A stretch of 30,660 bases of DNA from a virus. The notes under the pieces were generated by a model that was given only the letters and a program-made list of their open reading frames with translations, made no database searches and was not told where the DNA came from. Every line of letters starts with the position of its first letter. The stretch's first letter is position 1. The position numbers and the translations under genes were made by a program. Below, one piece after another: positions 2,874 through 25,545 of the stretch. The stretch is taken from positions 1 to 30,660 of IMG/VR virus record IMGVR_UViG_3300029309_000216. One strand, 5' to 3'.

Positions 2874-3058
2874 CTAAGATAGCACCAAAAACAACAAAAG
2901 AGCATATAGTTAATATTTATAACAAGATTGAATTGTTAGAAACAAATCATATTTATCATTTGCAACAAGAGGTAAAAAAACTTAATCGTATTTTGTATGC
3001 AATAGGTTTTATGGTTGCTACTCAGTTTATAGCTTGGGTGCTTAGAATGGTAGGTTAA
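2870..3058 (+). CDS. Small protein with C-terminal membrane anchor
   Basis: 62 aa. Residues about 8-40 form an amphipathic helix (heptads with Ile/Leu and charged residues) and residues about 42-59 a single membrane segment (LYAIGFMVATQFIAWVL). This arrangement resembles XhlA-type or other lysis-accessory proteins that sit beside holins and endolysins. It overlaps its upstream neighbour by four bases and the lysozyme start by one base (TAATG), so it belongs to the lysis transcript. Role in lysis is inferred from context. Confidence 0.65.
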   Translation: MTKIAPKTTKEHIVNIYNKIELLETNHIYHLQQEVKKLNRILYAIGFMVATQFIAWVLRMVG

Positions 3059-3513
3059 TGTACGAGGAAGTAAAAAAGAAAATTAAGTCCTCAGAGGGTT
3101 TTTCTAATCGTGGTTATTTTTTAGAATACAAAGGAATTGACGGAACAGTTATTACAGAAGATTTTATGACAATAGGTTATGGTCACAAGGTTGTTGAGGG
3201 AGACCCATATAAACCACATGTAGATTACCCTACGGAAGTTTTAGAAAAACAGTTTGAAAAAGACTTTGAAGTTTATCTCCACGCTGCAGAAAGATACATA
3301 GGCTCTTGTGAGGTCCCAGAGCATATCAAAGAAATAATTATTGAAACAGCGTACAATATTGGCGAACCGAAACTTTTCATGTTCAAAAACATGAGGGCAA
3401 AAATGCAAGAGGGAGATTGGCAAGGTATGGCTGCTGAACTTAGGGATAGCAAGTTGTATAGAACTTTGACATCAAGGTATGAACCTTTAGCAAAAATTAT
3501 AGAGGAGACGTAA
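3058..3513 (+). CDS. Endolysin, T4-type lysozyme (GH24)
   Basis: 151 aa. Muramidase that would cut the glycan strands of host peptidoglycan at lysis. The N-terminus carries the family catalytic pattern: KxxxxSEGF with Glu13, then Asp35 and Thr38 in TIGYGH, equivalent to the Glu-Asp-Thr set of T4 lysozyme. The remainder has the helical features of the family, including ETAYNIG near residues 96-102, the position of the usual (AF)NxG motif. No signal peptide or SAR-like helix is seen, so release should depend on the holin directly downstream. Length is typical for small phage lysozymes. The start overlaps the stop of the previous gene (TAATG). Confidence 0.92.
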   Translation: MYEEVKKKIKSSEGFSNRGYFLEYKGIDGTVITEDFMTIGYGHKVVEGDPYKPHVDYPTEVLEKQFEKDFEVYLHAAERYIGSCEVPEHIKEIIIETAYNIGEPKLFMFKNMRAKMQEGDWQGMAAELRDSKLYRTLTSRYEPLAKIIEET

Positions 3514-3945
3514 ATGGTATTAGGTAAATTATTAAGTGGTGGTTTAGTTGATAGTGTAGGTAAGATAGTAGATGATCTACACGTATCAGAGGAAGAAAAA
3601 GCACAAGCAAAAGCTAAATTACTAGAATTAGAAAACGAAGTAAAACTCAAACAAATGGATATTAACTTAGCTGACGCAAAGTCAACAGCTGGTGGTATAT
3701 CAGGAATGTTGCAGCGTTCTTGGAGGCCATTAATCGGTATGAGTTGTGCCTTAGCGATCTTTTGGGAATTCGTATTAAGTAAATTTATTTTGTTTATTTG
3801 TGGATTATTTCAGTATGAAGTGGTAAACATACCTGAGTTGGAAATGGGAACTTTGATGCCCTTAGTCATGGCATTATTAGGGATGTCAGGAATAAGATCA
3901 TTTGAGAAGTTGAAAAAAATCAATTCCGACAAGGGAAAGGAGTAA
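3514..3945 (+). CDS. Holin, 3-TM GTA-type
   Basis: 143 aa. N-terminal half is a charged amphipathic helix (about 20-60). Then come RSWRPLIG, the hallmark before the first membrane helix of the GTA_holin_3TM family, a first hydrophobic segment (about 72-92), a second (about 93-103, weaker) and a third (about 112-128, GTLMPLVMALLGMSGIRSFEK). This family is known from gene transfer agents of alphaproteobacteria and from many marine phages. It starts right after the lysozyme stop. It would form the lesion that lets the lysozyme reach the wall. Confidence 0.85.
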   Translation: MVLGKLLSGGLVDSVGKIVDDLHVSEEEKAQAKAKLLELENEVKLKQMDINLADAKSTAGGISGMLQRSWRPLIGMSCALAIFWEFVLSKFILFICGLFQYEVVNIPELEMGTLMPLVMALLGMSGIRSFEKLKKINSDKGKE

Positions 3946-9799: not shown

Positions 9800-9980
9800 A
9801 GACGCTGAAACTGCAGATTGGTTTATCGGTTTATGGATAAAAGCACAAAATAAGGCAATAGCGAAAGTTCAAGATGAGTATATTTTTTTCGAGTACACTC
9901 CAGACGAATTTGATTTTCAAGTTGATAAATATACGGTAGAATACTACAAACAATTAAAGTTGGAGGCTAAATGTTTATAG
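9756..9980 (+). CDS. 74-aa acidic protein, unknown
   Basis: Begins MSHVEVSNLKVIVPEDAET and continues with a helix rich in Lys/Ala (IKAQNKAIAKVQDE) and an aromatic acidic end (YIFFEYTPDEFDFQVDKYTVEYY). It overlaps the VRR-NUC gene by 44 bases and the initiator gene by 10. The start has no clear ribosome site, so coupling to the upstream gene or another start is possible. No family recognised. Confidence 0.6.
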   Translation: MSHVEVSNLKVIVPEDAETADWFIGLWIKAQNKAIAKVQDEYIFFEYTPDEFDFQVDKYTVEYYKQLKLEAKCL

Positions 9981-10816
9981 ATGAGAATTCTAAACCTAAA
10001 GAAAAACTTAAAGCGTGGTATCTTTTCACGGAAGACTTTGTTGCAGGAACGCAACACTTAACTAATCAAGAAATAGGAATTTATATTCGATTGCTTTGTT
10101 GGAATTGGAATAAAAGATGTGTTGGTTTACCAAATGATGTTAATACAATTTTTAGAATAGCAAACTGTATTACTGATAGTGAAAAGTTTTCATGTGAAAA
10201 AATAATTAAAGAATTTTTTGTAGAGATAAAAGATCATTGGCAAAATGAAAGACAGCTACAAGAATTTTTATATATTACAAAAAGAATAGAAGCATCAAAA
10301 GAAAATGGTAAGTTAGGTGGTCGTCCAAAAAAACCTAGCACAAACCCCCCTACCCCTACCCCTACCCCTACCAAAACATCTACAAATAAATATACTCCTC
10401 AATTCAATAAATTTTGGGATAAGATAAATTATAAAGTCAGCAAGGGGACAGCCGAAAAAAATTTCCAGAAGATAGAAAAGGAGTGGCAAGAAAAACCTGA
10501 CGAACTAGCAGATCTTTACAATAAATATTATAGTTCAGTACAAGATAAACAATTCGCAAAACAACCAGCGTTTTGGCTATCTGCAAAAAAATATTTAGAT
10601 ATATTGCCTGAAAAAAAACATGATTTCGGTATTGTAAATCGTGATGATGAAAGATTAAAAATGTTTGTCGATGCAATAAAAGACAGAAAAGTCACACGAT
10701 TTGTAAAAGACTGGGCGATTAAGAATAAAGATGTTATTGATAGAGGAATAAAACTTGGTAAAATTACTAAGGAACAAGCAATTAACGATTTGGAAATGAG
10801 GTCAGAATATGGTTAG
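9971..10816 (+). CDS. Replication initiator-like protein (DUF1376)
   Basis: 281 aa. Residues 10-115 fit DUF1376: KAWYLFTEDFVAGTQHLTNQEIGIYIRLL, LPNDVNTIFRIA, KIIKEFF and HWQNERL-like HWQNERQ, then the standard ENGKLGGRPKK tail of that domain. A Pro-Thr linker (about 124-137) leads to a C-terminal domain (about 140-281) with FWDKI, AEKNFQKI and AFWLSAKKYLDI, resembling the C-terminal part of phage replisome-organiser proteins. Such proteins recognise the origin and recruit a host helicase or loader. No polymerase, primase or helicase is seen in the window, so this gene is the best replication protein. The linker is encoded by tandem CCCCTA repeats, possibly the origin itself, as lambda has its origin inside gene O. 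Confidence 0.78.
   Translation: MFIDENSKPKEKLKAWYLFTEDFVAGTQHLTNQEIGIYIRLLCWNWNKRCVGLPNDVNTIFRIANCITDSEKFSCEKIIKEFFVEIKDHWQNERQLQEFLYITKRIEASKENGKLGGRPKKPSTNPPTPTPTPTKTSTNKYTPQFNKFWDKINYKVSKGTAEKNFQKIEKEWQEKPDELADLYNKYYSSVQDKQFAKQPAFWLSAKKYLDILPEKKHDFGIVNRDDERLKMFVDAIKDRKVTRFVKDWAIKNKDVIDRGIKLGKITKEQAINDLEMRSEYG
10347..10372. repeat. Four tandem CCCCTA repeats, G-quadruplex candidate
   Basis: Four exact copies of CCCCTA at 10347-10370, preceded by CC and followed by CC. The minus strand therefore has four or more runs of at least four G separated by TA, a strong quadruplex pattern. It encodes the Pro-Thr linker of the initiator and is followed by about 65 bases of very AT-rich sequence. Confidence 0.85.
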
Positions 10817-11429
10817 AATGAATCTAGAGGAAATAATTCCTTACTCACGAAATCCAAGAAAAAATCAACACATTGATAAAGTTGCTGCTTCTATAAAAGA
10901 GTTTGGATTTCAACAGCCTATAGTAGTTGATAAAGAAAAAGTAATTATTGTTGGTCATACAAGATATCTAGCTGCTCAAAAACTTGGTATGAGAGAAGTA
11001 CCGGTAATAGTAGCAGAAAATTTAGATGAAAACCAAGTCAAGGCATATAGGATAGCTGATAACAGAGTTGCAGAAGAATCACAGTGGGATAATGAATTAC
11101 TTAATCTTGAATTAATGGATTTACAAAAAAATGAAATAGATCTTTCTGTATTAGGATTTGAACAAAGTGAAATAGAAAAAATATTTTCTAATGATGATCC
11201 TTTGTTTGTGACACCTGAGCAATCTTTCAATGAAGAGACACCAAATGTTGATAGCCTTATACCCTCACAAGTTAGAATGGTACAATTATTTTTTAATGAA
11301 GATACAGAACCAAAATTCAAGGAAATGGTATCATTGTTGCAAGAAAAGTTTGATATCAACAATTTAACAGATACAGTTTATAAAGCAGTAGAAAATGAAT
11401 ACAATAGAAGTAGAACCGATATTAACTGA
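10809..11429 (+). CDS. ParB/Srx-type domain protein
   Basis: 206 aa. Residues 4-95 are a ParB-N domain: MNLEEIIPYSRNPRKN with the N-x-R motif (15-17), IKEFGFQQPIVVD, VIIVGHTRYLAAQKLG with GHTR (49-52), VPVIVAE and AYRIADNR. No recognisable central HTH follows, so it is not a partitioning ParB; phage ParB-N proteins often occur beside DNA methyltransferases and terminases and some hydrolyse CTP/ATP or nick DNA. Residues about 130-206 form a second region that ends in a helix. The TET/JBP gene starts 35 bases before its stop, and it overlaps the initiator by eight bases. A role in placing or regulating DNA modification is suggested by that coupling. Confidence 0.85.
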   Translation: MVRMNLEEIIPYSRNPRKNQHIDKVAASIKEFGFQQPIVVDKEKVIIVGHTRYLAAQKLGMREVPVIVAENLDENQVKAYRIADNRVAEESQWDNELLNLELMDLQKNEIDLSVLGFEQSEIEKIFSNDDPLFVTPEQSFNEETPNVDSLIPSQVRMVQLFFNEDTEPKFKEMVSLLQEKFDINNLTDTVYKAVENEYNRSRTDIN

Positions 11430-12312
11430 CGCAGAAATAGACGCTTTAGAGGGTAATTTCTTAGATGAATCATATCTGAAATATCCTGTCATTAATGAAG
11501 ATACGATAGTTAAAAATGAAAAAGGCGAAACACTATTAGTATTCTTAAAAAATAAAATACCAGCTAATATTTGTTATGACGCATACAAAGTTTTTAGGAT
11601 AGCTGCACTACAAGTCACAAGTAATCGTAGTCAAGCTGCTGGTCCTCTACCACCAGAACTAAAGATAGGCGACAAAGTTGACGGAATGACAGTAGGCAAA
11701 ATATCAGGAAACAGATTTTATCCTGTCAAAAAAGACGGCACGATATCAAATAGTGGTAAATCAAAAGAAGTGAATAGTGGCATAGTAGGATATGCAGATA
11801 GATATCCAAGAATACCTTATTGCAGAACAACAGAGTTCACACGTAGGCACTTTGACGACTACAAAAAAACATTGCCGTATATCAAATATATAGCTGATCT
11901 TTTCAAAAAGTATATTCCTGAAAGATATGAACCACAAAAAAGAGCATGGGAAAAGACACACGAAGATTTCAGAATACCTGAATCGCCATTCACTACTATT
12001 ACTGTTAATAAAAACTTTCGTACAGCTTGTCATTATGATGCTGGAGATCTGAAAGAGGGTTTTGGAAATTTAGGAGTTTTACAAGCTGGTGAATATTCTG
12101 GTGCTTATACTATTATACCAAAGTACGGAGTTGGTGTTGATGTACGTAGTTGTGATGTATCTTTTTTTAATGTTCACGAATTACACGGAAATACTGCAAT
12201 AAAACCAATCGGCAACGCTGAAAGAATATCAATCATAGCTTATTTTAGAGAAAAAATGACTGAATGTGGTAGCGCAGCTGATGAATTAGAAAGAGTAAAA
12301 TATGCAACTTAA
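11395..12312 (+). CDS. TET/JBP-family 2OG-Fe(II) dioxygenase
   Basis: 305 aa. Enzymes of this family oxidise the 5-methyl group of thymine (JBP) or 5-methylcytosine (TET) in DNA. Visible signature: N-terminal SNRSQAAGPLPPE; CRTTEFTRRH (143-152); TTITVNKNFRTACHYDAGD with the iron ligands His213 and Asp215; LQAGEYSGAYTIIPKYG (229-245); DVSFFNVHELHGN with His264 (His261 less likely) as the third ligand; and ERISIIAYFRE with Arg277 as the likely 2-oxoglutarate anchor. Length and the GEYSGxxxxIPKYG segment place it in TET/JBP rather than AlkB or prolyl hydroxylases. It overlaps ParB-like and FkbM genes on both sides, so all three are made together. Target base cannot be read from sequence; no DNA C5-methyltransferase is present in the window. 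Confidence 0.85.
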   Translation: MNTIEVEPILTDAEIDALEGNFLDESYLKYPVINEDTIVKNEKGETLLVFLKNKIPANICYDAYKVFRIAALQVTSNRSQAAGPLPPELKIGDKVDGMTVGKISGNRFYPVKKDGTISNSGKSKEVNSGIVGYADRYPRIPYCRTTEFTRRHFDDYKKTLPYIKYIADLFKKYIPERYEPQKRAWEKTHEDFRIPESPFTTITVNKNFRTACHYDAGDLKEGFGNLGVLQAGEYSGAYTIIPKYGVGVDVRSCDVSFFNVHELHGNTAIKPIGNAERISIIAYFREKMTECGSAADELERVKYAT

Positions 12313-12994
12313 CTACAGAAAAGGCACGACAGACGAAAACATCATTAAAGAAATAATACAGAAACAAGCATACAGAAAAAAAAAGTTAGATTTTAAGATT
12401 GAAAACGATGATGTTTGGCTAGACGGAGGCGCACATATTGGTATTTTTGGCTTATATGCTGCTCAAAATGGTGCAAAGAAAGTTTACTGTTATGAGCCTG
12501 AGGATGAAAATTATAATCTTTTATTACAGAATATTACAATAATGAAATCAGAATATCCTACTGAAATAACTGCTAATAAATATGCAGTAAATCAAAATGG
12601 TGGTGTAGGTACTTTCACTATAGCACCTAACACTTGGCGACATTCTTTAATGACACACTATAAAAAAAAATTACCAACACAGGAAATAAATTGTAAAAGT
12701 TTAGATGAAGTATTGCAAACACATGGCGATATCAATGCAATCAAATTAGACATAGAGGGGTCAGAATTAGATATATTAAAAAACGATCACGACTTTTCTA
12801 ACGTGAAAAAACTAGTGTTTGAATACAGTTTTACTAAAGATAGACGTATGGATAACTTCTTTAAATGTGCAGAAAAATTAGAAAAATATTTTTATGTCGA
12901 TATACAGAACAGCTTCTATAATCAAAAACATCAAGGACAGCAAGGATTATGGGGTGGCTTTATAGATGCAATTATCTTTTGCAAAGCTAAGTAA
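12302..12994 (+). CDS. FkbM-family SAM methyltransferase
   Basis: 230 aa, overlapping the dioxygenase gene by 11 bases. SAM-binding motif I VWLDGGAHIGIFG (38-50), motif II YCYEPED (62-68, acidic residue for the ribose), and the FkbM-type IKLDIEGSELDIL (147-159). FkbM enzymes usually O-methylate hydroxyl groups on sugars or small molecules. None of the DNA methyltransferase signatures (PCQ/ENV of C5 enzymes, DPPY of N6 enzymes) is seen. In this context the natural acceptor would be a hydroxymethyl base made by the dioxygenase, or a group attached to it; methylation of a glycan is the ordinary alternative. Confidence 0.85.
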   Translation: MQLNYRKGTTDENIIKEIIQKQAYRKKKLDFKIENDDVWLDGGAHIGIFGLYAAQNGAKKVYCYEPEDENYNLLLQNITIMKSEYPTEITANKYAVNQNGGVGTFTIAPNTWRHSLMTHYKKKLPTQEINCKSLDEVLQTHGDINAIKLDIEGSELDILKNDHDFSNVKKLVFEYSFTKDRRMDNFFKCAEKLEKYFYVDIQNSFYNQKHQGQQGLWGGFIDAIIFCKAK

Positions 12995-13054
12995 AAAAAG
13001 ATAAAAAAGTCATAATTACAAAAAAAATACCTTTACTCAGGGGAAAGAGGATAA

Positions 13055-13387
13055 ATGTCTGATAAGAAGAAAGTTGGAAGACCTAAGAAAAAACTCCCAT
13101 ATTCGTTGGAAGATATAGAAAAATTAGCAACTATGCAGTGTACAAGAGAAGAGATTGCAAATTTTTGTGGCGTATCAGTTAGCACATTAAAACGTAATTT
13201 TGACCCCCCTATAAAAAAGGGGTGGGACAAGGGCAAAAGGTCCTTGAGACGTGCTATGTTTGATAAAGCTATGAGAGGCAATACGACTATGTTGATTTGG
13301 CTTTCTAAAAATTATTTAGGTATGAAAGATAAAGTAGAAACATCAGAAGAAAAAGAGCCGTTGCCATGGAGTCCTGATCTTGTTTAA
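13055..13387 (+). CDS. Terminase small subunit
   Basis: 110 aa. Basic start SDKKKVGRPKKKLPYS, a helix-turn-helix (TREEIANFCGVSVSTLKRNF, about 29-49), then RRAMFDKAMRGNTTMLIWLSKNYLGMKDK, the typical end of phage TerS proteins. It would recognise the packaging site and bring DNA to TerL, whose gene starts on its last base pair region (TAATG overlap). A 60-base spacer separates it from the methyltransferase, the largest gap of the plus strand between 9.4 and 18 kb, without a clear promoter. Start backed by GGGGAAAGAGG. Confidence 0.82.
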   Translation: MSDKKKVGRPKKKLPYSLEDIEKLATMQCTREEIANFCGVSVSTLKRNFDPPIKKGWDKGKRSLRRAMFDKAMRGNTTMLIWLSKNYLGMKDKVETSEEKEPLPWSPDLV

Positions 13388-14601
13388 TGCCATACACTAA
13401 ACCACAGGCTGAAGTAATCGGCAGTAGATCAAGATTTAGAGTATTAATTAGTGGGCGTAGATTTGGGAAAACATTCTTAGCTATTAATGAATTAGCACGA
13501 TTTGCACGTTTCCCTAACAGGCGTGTTTGGTATGTTGCACCGACCTACAGACAGGCCAAAGCGATTTGTTGGCAAGAACTCATACAAAGACTTAGAGCGC
13601 ATAATTGGATTAATGAAGTAAATAACTCTGATTTAACAGTCACTTTAAGAAATAATAGCAGAATATCACTAAGAGGCGCAGATAATGAAAATAGTTTGCG
13701 TGGTATAGGTTTAGATTTTTTAGTTATGGACGAGTTTGCTGACATAAACCCTACTGCTTGGCATGAAGTATTAAGGCCTACATTGAGTGACACTCAGGGA
13801 CATGCTATATTTTGTGGTACGCCTAGAGGATTTGGAAATTGGGGTTATGATATGTATGTTAAAGGCCAGACTGACAATGAATGGGAAAGTTTTAAATATA
13901 CTACGTTAGAGGGTTTACAAGTACCTAAAGAAGAAATAGAACAAGCACAGGAAGATTTAGACGAGAGAACTTTTCAGCAAGAGTATATGGCATCGTTTGT
14001 TAATTATGCTGGAATGATTTACTACAACTTTGATAGAAATAAAAACATTATAGATAAACATTCACATCAATATCAAACTTTGCATATTGGTTTAGATTTT
14101 AATGTAGATCCAATGTGTGCTGTTGTTTCTGTAATTGAAAATGATAGAATTTATGTTATAGATGAAATACAGATATGGTCATCAAATACAAATGAAATGG
14201 TTGAAGAAATAAAAACACGATACAAAAACAAATGTATTATTTATCCTGATCCAAGTGCAAGACAAAGAAAAACTTCTGCTGGTGGTCTAACTGATTTAGC
14301 AATATTAAAAAATGCTGGTTTCGAAGTTCGTTGTAGAAACTCTGCACCGTTAGTTAGAGATAGAATTAACTCAGTAAACGCAAAATTAAAAAACGTAAAA
14401 GGTATAAACAATTTATTTATATTGAAATCTTGTAAAAATGCCATTAAGAGTATTGAAAGACAGATTTATAAAGAGGGTACGCATATACCTGACAAAGATA
14501 GTGGTTATGACCATTTCAATGACGCTCTAGGTTATTGCGTAGAATATAATTTTCCTTTGAAGAGGGATTTTAGACCAAACCCTCCAAGTAGGTGGAGTTG
14601 A
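13387..14601 (+). CDS. Terminase large subunit
   Basis: 404 aa packaging motor and nuclease. ATPase: Walker A SGRRFGKT (22-29), Walker B FLVMDE (111-116), coupling motif IFCGTPRG (141-148). RNase H-like nuclease: GLDFNVDP with Asp237, IYPDPSAR with Asp288, and HFNDALGY with Asp379. All key residues are in place and the length is normal for the shorter Terminase_6 type. It follows TerS directly and precedes the portal gene (TGATG overlap). Confidence 0.95.
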   Translation: MPYTKPQAEVIGSRSRFRVLISGRRFGKTFLAINELARFARFPNRRVWYVAPTYRQAKAICWQELIQRLRAHNWINEVNNSDLTVTLRNNSRISLRGADNENSLRGIGLDFLVMDEFADINPTAWHEVLRPTLSDTQGHAIFCGTPRGFGNWGYDMYVKGQTDNEWESFKYTTLEGLQVPKEEIEQAQEDLDERTFQQEYMASFVNYAGMIYYNFDRNKNIIDKHSHQYQTLHIGLDFNVDPMCAVVSVIENDRIYVIDEIQIWSSNTNEMVEEIKTRYKNKCIIYPDPSARQRKTSAGGLTDLAILKNAGFEVRCRNSAPLVRDRINSVNAKLKNVKGINNLFILKSCKNAIKSIERQIYKEGTHIPDKDSGYDHFNDALGYCVEYNFPLKRDFRPNPPSRWS

Positions 14602-24539: not shown

Positions 24540-25105
24540 TGCCAAGAGGATTAACAAGTGCAGTTAAAACAGAATTAGCCACAGGGAATATAGACCCTGT
24601 TTATTTAGTTGATATTGAATTTTCATCAAGAATTTATCTTACTACAGCACCATTTGATATAACATCTAGTGTTTCTGGGAGTTCACAAACATATTTAGCA
24701 AACGGACATTTAAGAAGTATTACAGGCGCAAACGAAACTAATAGACCAACAAAAAACACACTATCATTCAGTTTATCAGGAGTAGATCAAACTTACATAT
24801 CAGTTGCATTAAACGAAAATATAATTAATAAAAATGTTAGCCTTTATAAAGGTTATTTAGATAGTAATAATGCTGTTATTTCTGATCCTTTTTTAATATT
24901 TTATGGAACGATAGACGAATACAAAATATCTGACAATACTAACACAGCAAATCTAATCATTAGTGTCACTTCACATTGGGGTAATTTTAGTAAAACTGCT
25001 GGAAGAACAACTACTGATAATTCACAGAAAAGATTTTTTAGTACAGATAAAGGTATGGAATTCGCAGCTTTGACTGTTCGTGACATCAAATGGGGTAGAA
25101 CATGA
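24539..25105 (+). CDS. Tail hub protein, DUF2163-like
   Basis: 188 aa. LTSAVKTELATGNIDPVYLVDIEF, then YLANGHLRSITG, LSFSLSGVDQTYISVAL, VSLYKGYLD, LIFYGTIDEYKIS and SVTSHWGNFSKTAGR correspond to the N-terminal domain of hub proteins of the GTA/DUF2163 type. The C-terminal part of those proteins is missing, so this is a short version. Starts after a TAATG overlap. It would sit between distal ring and the tail-tip fibre protein. Confidence 0.72.
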   Translation: MPRGLTSAVKTELATGNIDPVYLVDIEFSSRIYLTTAPFDITSSVSGSSQTYLANGHLRSITGANETNRPTKNTLSFSLSGVDQTYISVALNENIINKNVSLYKGYLDSNNAVISDPFLIFYGTIDEYKISDNTNTANLIISVTSHWGNFSKTAGRTTTDNSQKRFFSTDKGMEFAALTVRDIKWGRT

Positions 25106-25545
25106 CAAGCATTCATCAGCTTTATGCTGATAAGAGCGATGTTGTAGATATTTACAATTTATTAGTACATTATAAAAATACAGATTTAATTGATTTAGAT
25201 TATCCAGAGGTCGATAGAGGTAAAGGTCTAAATTTTATCAATACAATATTGCAAAGAGGTAAAATAATATTGTTAAAAGATTTAGATATTAATGAATTAG
25301 TCGGTTGTTGTATGTTTAACAAATCAGAATACTTTTTTAGTAAAACACAAATAATGATGATACAAATGATTTATATAAAACAAGAATATAGAAATTTTAA
25401 AATAGTAAAACAAATGATTGATTCTGTAAAAAAACTTAGTGGAGATATGCATATAGTTTTATCTATAACTTCAGGCTTAGGAGTTGATCCTGTATTTCAA
25501 AAATTAGGTTTTGAGAATATGGGTGGTAATTGGAGGCTAATATAA
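25102..25545 (+). CDS. GNAT-like acetyltransferase fold protein
   Basis: 147 aa. Layout fits GNAT: ADKSDVVDIYNLLVHY (helix 1), ILLKDLDINELVGCCMF (strands), MMIQMIYIKQEYRNFKIVKQMIDSVKK (strand 4 and helix 3) and PVFQKLGFENMGGNW (xxFYxKLGFxxxG end). The acetyl-CoA loop normally reads Q/RxxGxG/A; here it is EYRNFKI without glycines, so CoA binding may be weak or lost. It lies between hub and tail-tip genes, where related phages and GTAs carry an NlpC/P60 peptidase. Its role in a virion or in modifying a tail or host protein is unknown. Confidence 0.7.
   Translation: MTSIHQLYADKSDVVDIYNLLVHYKNTDLIDLDYPEVDRGKGLNFINTILQRGKIILLKDLDINELVGCCMFNKSEYFFSKTQIMMIQMIYIKQEYRNFKIVKQMIDSVKKLSGDMHIVLSITSGLGVDPVFQKLGFENMGGNWRLI

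Follow-up and report, generated by a model that had tools for sequence, protein, structure and literature searches.

In the base J pathway of kinetoplastids (JBP1/2 and JGT), a TET/JBP dioxygenase oxidises thymine to 5-hydroxymethyluracil (5hmU), on which a cap is then placed, and in the thymidine hypermodification of phages phiW-14, M6 and ViI 5hmU is likewise the intermediate and is tailored after replication (PMC6449724). Distant actinophages, for example Gordonia phage Wooper (genes 1-6), have operons that encode a ParB-like protein, a TET/JBP protein, tailoring enzymes and the terminase in this order; in Wooper-type actinophages we confirmed an amino acid:DNA transferase (ADDT, Pfam PF18724) and P-loop kinase 3, the kinase being annotated as a 5-hmU DNA kinase. 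A comparable cassette lies in the stretch of DNA analysed here, a single IMG/VR virus record of 30,660 bases to which we refer as the window (W). It comprises genes for a ParB-like protein (206 residues, positions 10809-11429), a TET/JBP-family Fe(II)/2-oxoglutarate dioxygenase (305 residues, 11395-12312) and an FkbM-type S-adenosylmethionine (SAM)-dependent methyltransferase (230 residues, 12302-12994), all on the + strand, as are all cassette features and flanking genes given below. The cassette is a variant of the already known TET-based hypermodification of phage DNA. We infer, with a probability of roughly 0.5, that its TET converts thymine to 5hmU and its FkbM protein converts 5hmU to 5-methoxymethyluracil; this estimate covers the product, thymine as the substrate, the hydroxyl group as the acceptor, the role of the ParB-like protein and an anti-defence purpose taken together.

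Both its profile match and its fold make the dioxygenase of the window a true member of the TET/JBP family, as the first-pass annotation of this DNA had proposed. It matches the Pfam profile Tet_JBP with E=3.8e-25 (88.5 bits against a cut-off of 34.9), and the GEYSGAYTIIPKYG segment attributed to it is indeed present. The catalytic residues named at the same time (H213-x-D215, H264 and R277) are likewise in place: the codons for the metal ligands H213-Y-D215 (12031-12039) and H264 (12184-12186) and for the 2-oxoglutarate-binding arginine R277 (12223-12225) specify residues unchanged in 27 of 27 non-redundant relatives. Agreement of this extent lies far beyond what chance would give. A search of the PDB with the single sequence returned nothing relevant, a profile being required; the profile of 26 relatives matched TET2 alone, with the H/D/H/R motifs in register. 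Structure prediction, which had been suggested as a check, also places the protein inside the family. The AlphaFold2 model (predicted local distance difference test, pLDDT, 88.7) has the double-stranded beta-helix fold, and Foldseek ranks 1-26 in the PDB are occupied only by CcTet, NgTet1, TET2 and CMD1, the next matches (FTO and other dioxygenases) following at E about 1e-4. The window TET very likely oxidises the 5-methyl group of a DNA base. A scan of bacterial genomes for its close relatives found none. GenBank labels on phage TETs (L002, L004, L005, L191) include SNF2 DNA repair protein, DnaJ and queuine tRNA-ribosyltransferase, and one ParB is labelled "DNA methylase".

The third gene of the cassette matches Methyltransf_21 (FkbM, PF05050) with E=3.8e-14 (53.6 bits against a cut-off of 22.7). 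Within its SAM-binding motif I, LDGGAHIG (residues 40-47, 12419-12442), D41, G43 and G47 are invariant in all FkbM proteins compared, and so are the class I methyltransferase residues E65-P66 and D150. The segment NTWRHSL (residues 110-116, 12629-12649) is common to cyanophage FkbM and absent from those FkbM that accompany a glycosyltransferase, which form a separate group with different motifs. In one scan the general form of this segment, NxWR-[NH]-[ST]-[IL], which the glycosyltransferase-partnered group lacks, occurred in 43 of 61 TET-adjacent FkbM versus 2 of 19 others. We propose that the window FkbM is an O-methyltransferase of the oxidised base.

The gene behind TET varies among relatives, which carry at this position a TET-associated glycosyltransferase (TAGT, Pfam PF20691), sets of GATase and GNAT genes, P-loop kinases, GT-B type enzymes, other methyltransferases or FkbM. 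On a TET tree of 74 rows the state of this slot changed at least 30 times. The window and relative L009, both with FkbM, are nested in a well-supported TET group whose remaining members carry glycosyltransferases, L012, among the nearest of these, having 80% TET identity to the window. DNA homology to four glycosyltransferase-carrying relatives (L012, L013, L017, L100) ends at 12300-12307 and restarts at 12990-13005. Because it breaks only over the FkbM segment (12301-12990), the window differs from its nearest relatives by an exact exchange of one gene, glycosyltransferase versus FkbM. Profile searches of the window record gave no match to PF20691 or to ADDT PF18724, and TAGT was missing from every FkbM-only genome that was searched, among them four records of 30-32 kb and MED4-184. 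That FkbM stands in place of a glycosyltransferase, as had been noticed from the sequence at the outset, is thus strongly supported, the same slot holding TAGT, an ADDT set or a kinase in relatives; the accompanying view that FkbM is an unusual partner does not stand, as about 100 contigs and two cultured lineages share it. Judged by the neighbourhoods compared, ParB-TET is a fixed unit and the gene behind TET a swappable tailoring slot.

Other contents of this slot deserve mention. ADDT PF18724 is encoded in 25 of 26 records with a GATase or c7 type slot. In L029 (1946-4692) and about 45 more loci (L063-L088, L116, L136, L159-L163), TET is followed by a glutamine amidotransferase, a GNAT acetyltransferase, ADDT and a P-loop kinase, apparently an undescribed set for base hypermodification of the amino-acid type. 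In L149 (2502-4369) and L126, L128, L129, L130, L137, L147 and L156, TET is followed by a 253-residue methyltransferase-like protein with an FAGAGISS motif and no Pfam match, and then by ADDT; L184 (3761-7687), a phage contig of 100 kb, combines ParB-TET-ADDT with a kinase and a protein that resembles oxidoreductases. The P-loop kinases in the slots of L023 (1773-2315) and L038 (3965-4504) have their best match in PHROG 800, whose label "terminase small subunit" is probably wrong.

The partnership of FkbM and TET is found, as far as gene order tells, in two independent arrangements, ParB-TET-FkbM in pelagiphages and ParB-FkbM-TET in Prochlorococcus phages. A neighbourhood survey bore out the conserved order suspected earlier: ParB-TET-FkbM-TerS recurs in about 21 other records, including the cultured Pelagibacter phage HTVC112P (gp17-19). 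Neither of the two computational outcomes that were to speak against the first-pass proposal, a fold outside TET/JBP and an unconserved order, was thus observed. The cultured Prochlorococcus phages MED4-184, MED4-117 and P-HS2 have the order ParB-FkbM-TET-TerS-TerL, their ParB being annotated as "DNA methylase" and their TET as "queuine tRNA-ribosyltransferase" or "hypothetical". All 80 of the 80 contigs found with the MED4-184 type of FkbM carry a TET within 3 kb, 64 of 81 loci of this type have the complete ParB-FkbM-TET, and the H/D/H/R catalytic residues are invariant in the 129 TETs of such loci. The TET of MED4-184 itself lies below the Pfam cut-off, matches our own TET profile at 2e-14 and has HxD, H and R intact. 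The label "no TET" used for MED4-184 in one FkbM tree is wrong, since its TET is detected by this purpose-built profile.

The ParB-like protein has an N-terminal ParB domain with GHTRxxA (ParB_N, E=1.2e-10; phrog_620, 5.6e-55), and G49, R52 and A55 of the GxxRxxA motif are kept in the 38 rows of the alignment. A partition protein would also have a helix-turn-helix domain that binds parS and a ParA partner; ParB_N is the sole Pfam match here, and no ParA partner was seen among the open reading frames (ORFs) scanned, which were a part of all ORFs. Of 105 small-TET loci, counted without deduplication, 102 have ParB directly upstream, in most cases overlapping, and we propose it as a targeting or clamp partner of TET. 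Relatives of this protein occur also where TET is lacking. In L180 (1033-4795; also L181, L182) a ParB with 54% to the N-terminal part of the window ParB is followed by a 297-residue protein with no Pfam match and by QueC/GTP cyclohydrolase genes, a locus that looks like a 7-deazaguanine DNA-modification operon, and in L186 a ParB relative precedes a D12-class adenine methyltransferase. Because these TET-less relatives adjoin other DNA-modification genes, such ParB proteins may be general partners of phage DNA modifiers.

According to the mechanism we propose, the cassette would modify the phage's own DNA after replication. TET, held on or directed along the DNA by the ParB-like protein, would convert thymine to 5hmU by hydroxylating its 5-methyl group, and FkbM would use SAM to O-methylate the hydroxymethyl group, the product being the ether-capped base 5-methoxymethyluracil. 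Relatives would at this second step attach a sugar by means of TAGT, or an amino-acid group by means of a kinase and ADDT. The modified DNA would then be packaged, and its likely purpose would be to evade restriction or other defences directed at DNA. Quite possibly, though we put it tentatively, pelagiphages and Prochlorococcus phages, a common group among marine phages, carry 5-methoxymethyl-deoxyuridine by such a two-enzyme route of TET and O-methyltransferase, with ParB-TET as the constant writer and a cap gene exchangeable by single-gene swaps. The methyl-capped base would be a DNA base without prior description in the part of the literature covered.

The oxidised base, given as a pyrimidine in the first-pass annotation, can be narrowed to probably thymine rather than cytosine, because no C5-methyltransferase was found and because sibling slots and related actinophages use ADDT and kinases of the 5hmU route. 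Searches with PF00145, in which positive controls matched, detected no C5-methyltransferase in the window record, its near relatives, the FkbM-only records searched or the complete HTVC112P, MED4-184, Cr30, DLP6 or P12024L. ADDT and kinases are the enzymes by which phages M6, ViI and phiW-14 follow the 5hmU route (PMC6449724). The window record also holds no thymidylate-synthase homologue able to make hydroxymethyl-deoxyuridine monophosphate, which fits oxidation of the base within DNA. Dinucleotide odds were rejected as a signature of cytosine context, since every low-GC marine phage in the comparison has little CG, which is hence not diagnostic. The paper on phage DLP6 (PMC5349666), in which 18 restriction enzymes were tested, was set aside as evidence because its text on the outcome is garbled.

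Action of the cassette on cytosine, in which 5-methylcytosine (5mC) supplied by the host or by an unrecognised enzyme is turned by TET into 5-hydroxymethylcytosine and this by FkbM into 5-methoxymethylcytosine, is unlikely. Most characterised TETs do act on 5mC, the fold matches of the window TET include TETs solved on 5mC DNA, and in Melnitz phages a C5-methyltransferase directly precedes the TET relative. Melnitz is the one relative found with a C5-methyltransferase beside TET; its TET is divergent, with 25% identity to that of the window, and both the lack of PF00145 matches and the 5hmU-type tailoring genes of the sibling slots argue against cytosine. It is also doubtful that FkbM methylates a sugar placed on the hydroxymethyl base by an unrecognised phage glycosyltransferase or by one of the host. 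Although FkbM-family enzymes are typically sugar O-methyltransferases, and TAGT with FkbM, or a glycosyltransferase with another methyltransferase, co-occur in some relatives, FkbM replaces the glycosyltransferase in the slot, the FkbM-only genomes lack TAGT, and the glycosyltransferase-partnered FkbM are a distinct group. TETs can moreover oxidise iteratively and some FkbM-family enzymes are reported to act on carboxylates, by which a carboxyl made by TET would become a methyl ester (5-methoxycarbonyl pyrimidine). We regard this outcome as improbable, since the TAGT and kinase of sibling slots act on hydroxymethyl, which is most simply the common intermediate. Finally, there is very little likelihood that the target of FkbM, or of the cassette as a whole, is something other than phage DNA (surface glycans, RNA or protein) and that FkbM adjoins TET incidentally: the three families stay together in two gene orders, the reading frames overlap, all 80 relatives of the cyanophage FkbM adjoin TET, and FkbM occupies the position of known DNA-tailoring enzymes. 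What speaks for a non-DNA target is that a broad scan yielded about 80 FkbM of which 17-19 lack a TET within 3 kb, and that in phage DSL-LC06 (L192:1732-3607) a methyltransferase, GT9 and FkbM lie directly before TerS, together with other sugar genes and with no TET match, a glycan-type set in the corresponding genome position. An FkbM adjoining TerS thus need not always mean TET.

The DSL-LC06 locus is one of several points that weigh against methylation of 5hmU to 5-methoxymethyluracil. Near the tail fibre and tail genes of HTVC112P lies a gene with a borderline resemblance to GT9. ADDT and kinase would, by analogy, mark 5hmU in the relatives and not in the window phage. 5mC may come from the host, and an unusual cytosine methyltransferase or an unrecognised glycosyltransferase may be present among the many unannotated ORFs. 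The substrates described for FkbM enzymes are sugars and macrolides, and the family is not known to act on DNA. The PDB holds no close solved relative of the window FkbM, and its model (Rossmann fold, pLDDT 77) matches only generic class I methyltransferases; reading its substrate from the fold was accordingly rejected.

The setting of the cassette agrees with its initial description, which had placed it between a replication gene and TerS. ParB and TET overlap by 35 bases and TET and FkbM by 11, as first described. Upstream lies a gene for a DUF1376/primosomal-type replication protein (9971-10816; Pfam DUF1376, 8.7e-12; PHROG primosomal protein, 2.5e-25), whose 3' end overlaps ParB by 8 bases. 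Downstream follow a TerS-like small terminase (13055-13387; phrog_309, 2.6e-12) and TerL (13387-14601). The window belongs to a small marine phage; SAR11 bacteria (Pelagibacter) are the likely host, because the closest cultured relatives of this TerL are those of Pelagibacter phages (54-56% identity). All cassette genes are under purifying selection between the window and L009, with nonsynonymous (dN) and synonymous (dS) divergence of 0.07 and 0.80 for TET and 0.10 and 0.88 for FkbM. The corresponding locus of the related pelagiphages HTVC111P, HTVC026P and HTVC202P is free of the cassette, which is therefore an accessory trait. At this locus HTVC111P has gp17 (L187:4469-5086), a 205-residue protein annotated as a putative DNA cytosine methyltransferase and with no Pfam match. 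Elsewhere in the window, a GNAT acetyltransferase gene (25102-25545) lies within the tail gene block, in the same position as HTVC112P gp46 (annotated as RTX toxin acyltransferase family), and a phage lysozyme gene is followed by a gene for a gene-transfer-agent-type holin (GTA_holin_3TM; 3058-3945).

Should 5-methoxymethyluracil be the product, phage DNA chemistry would gain a new base and, on hydroxymethyl pyrimidines, a new cap in the form of a methyl ether, and this chemistry would occur in phages that infect two bacteria among the most abundant in the ocean. A fixed writer (ParB-TET) with an exchangeable cap gene could plausibly keep phages ahead of defences that recognise particular modifications. 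The cassette is present in the cultured phages HTVC112P, MED4-184, MED4-117 and P-HS2. Their genes belong to the same families as those of the window and have been annotated (gp17-19 in HTVC112P) without being read as a unit for DNA modification; MED4-184 differs in its order ParB-FkbM-TET and in a TET too divergent to be reached by tblastn from the window. Among the described systems, the TET-TAGT phages, which include the window's nearest relatives, share the slot and the ParB-TET unit, and their glycosyltransferase is replaced gene-for-gene by FkbM in the window. The actinophage operons transfer an amino acid via a phosphorylated base, whereas the window has a lone FkbM and no ADDT was found in it. 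In phiW-14, M6 and ViI 5-hydroxymethyl-deoxyuridine enters DNA as a deoxynucleoside triphosphate, whereas the window phage would make 5hmU within DNA by means of TET. In base J the cap is glucose; in the window phage it would be a methyl group.

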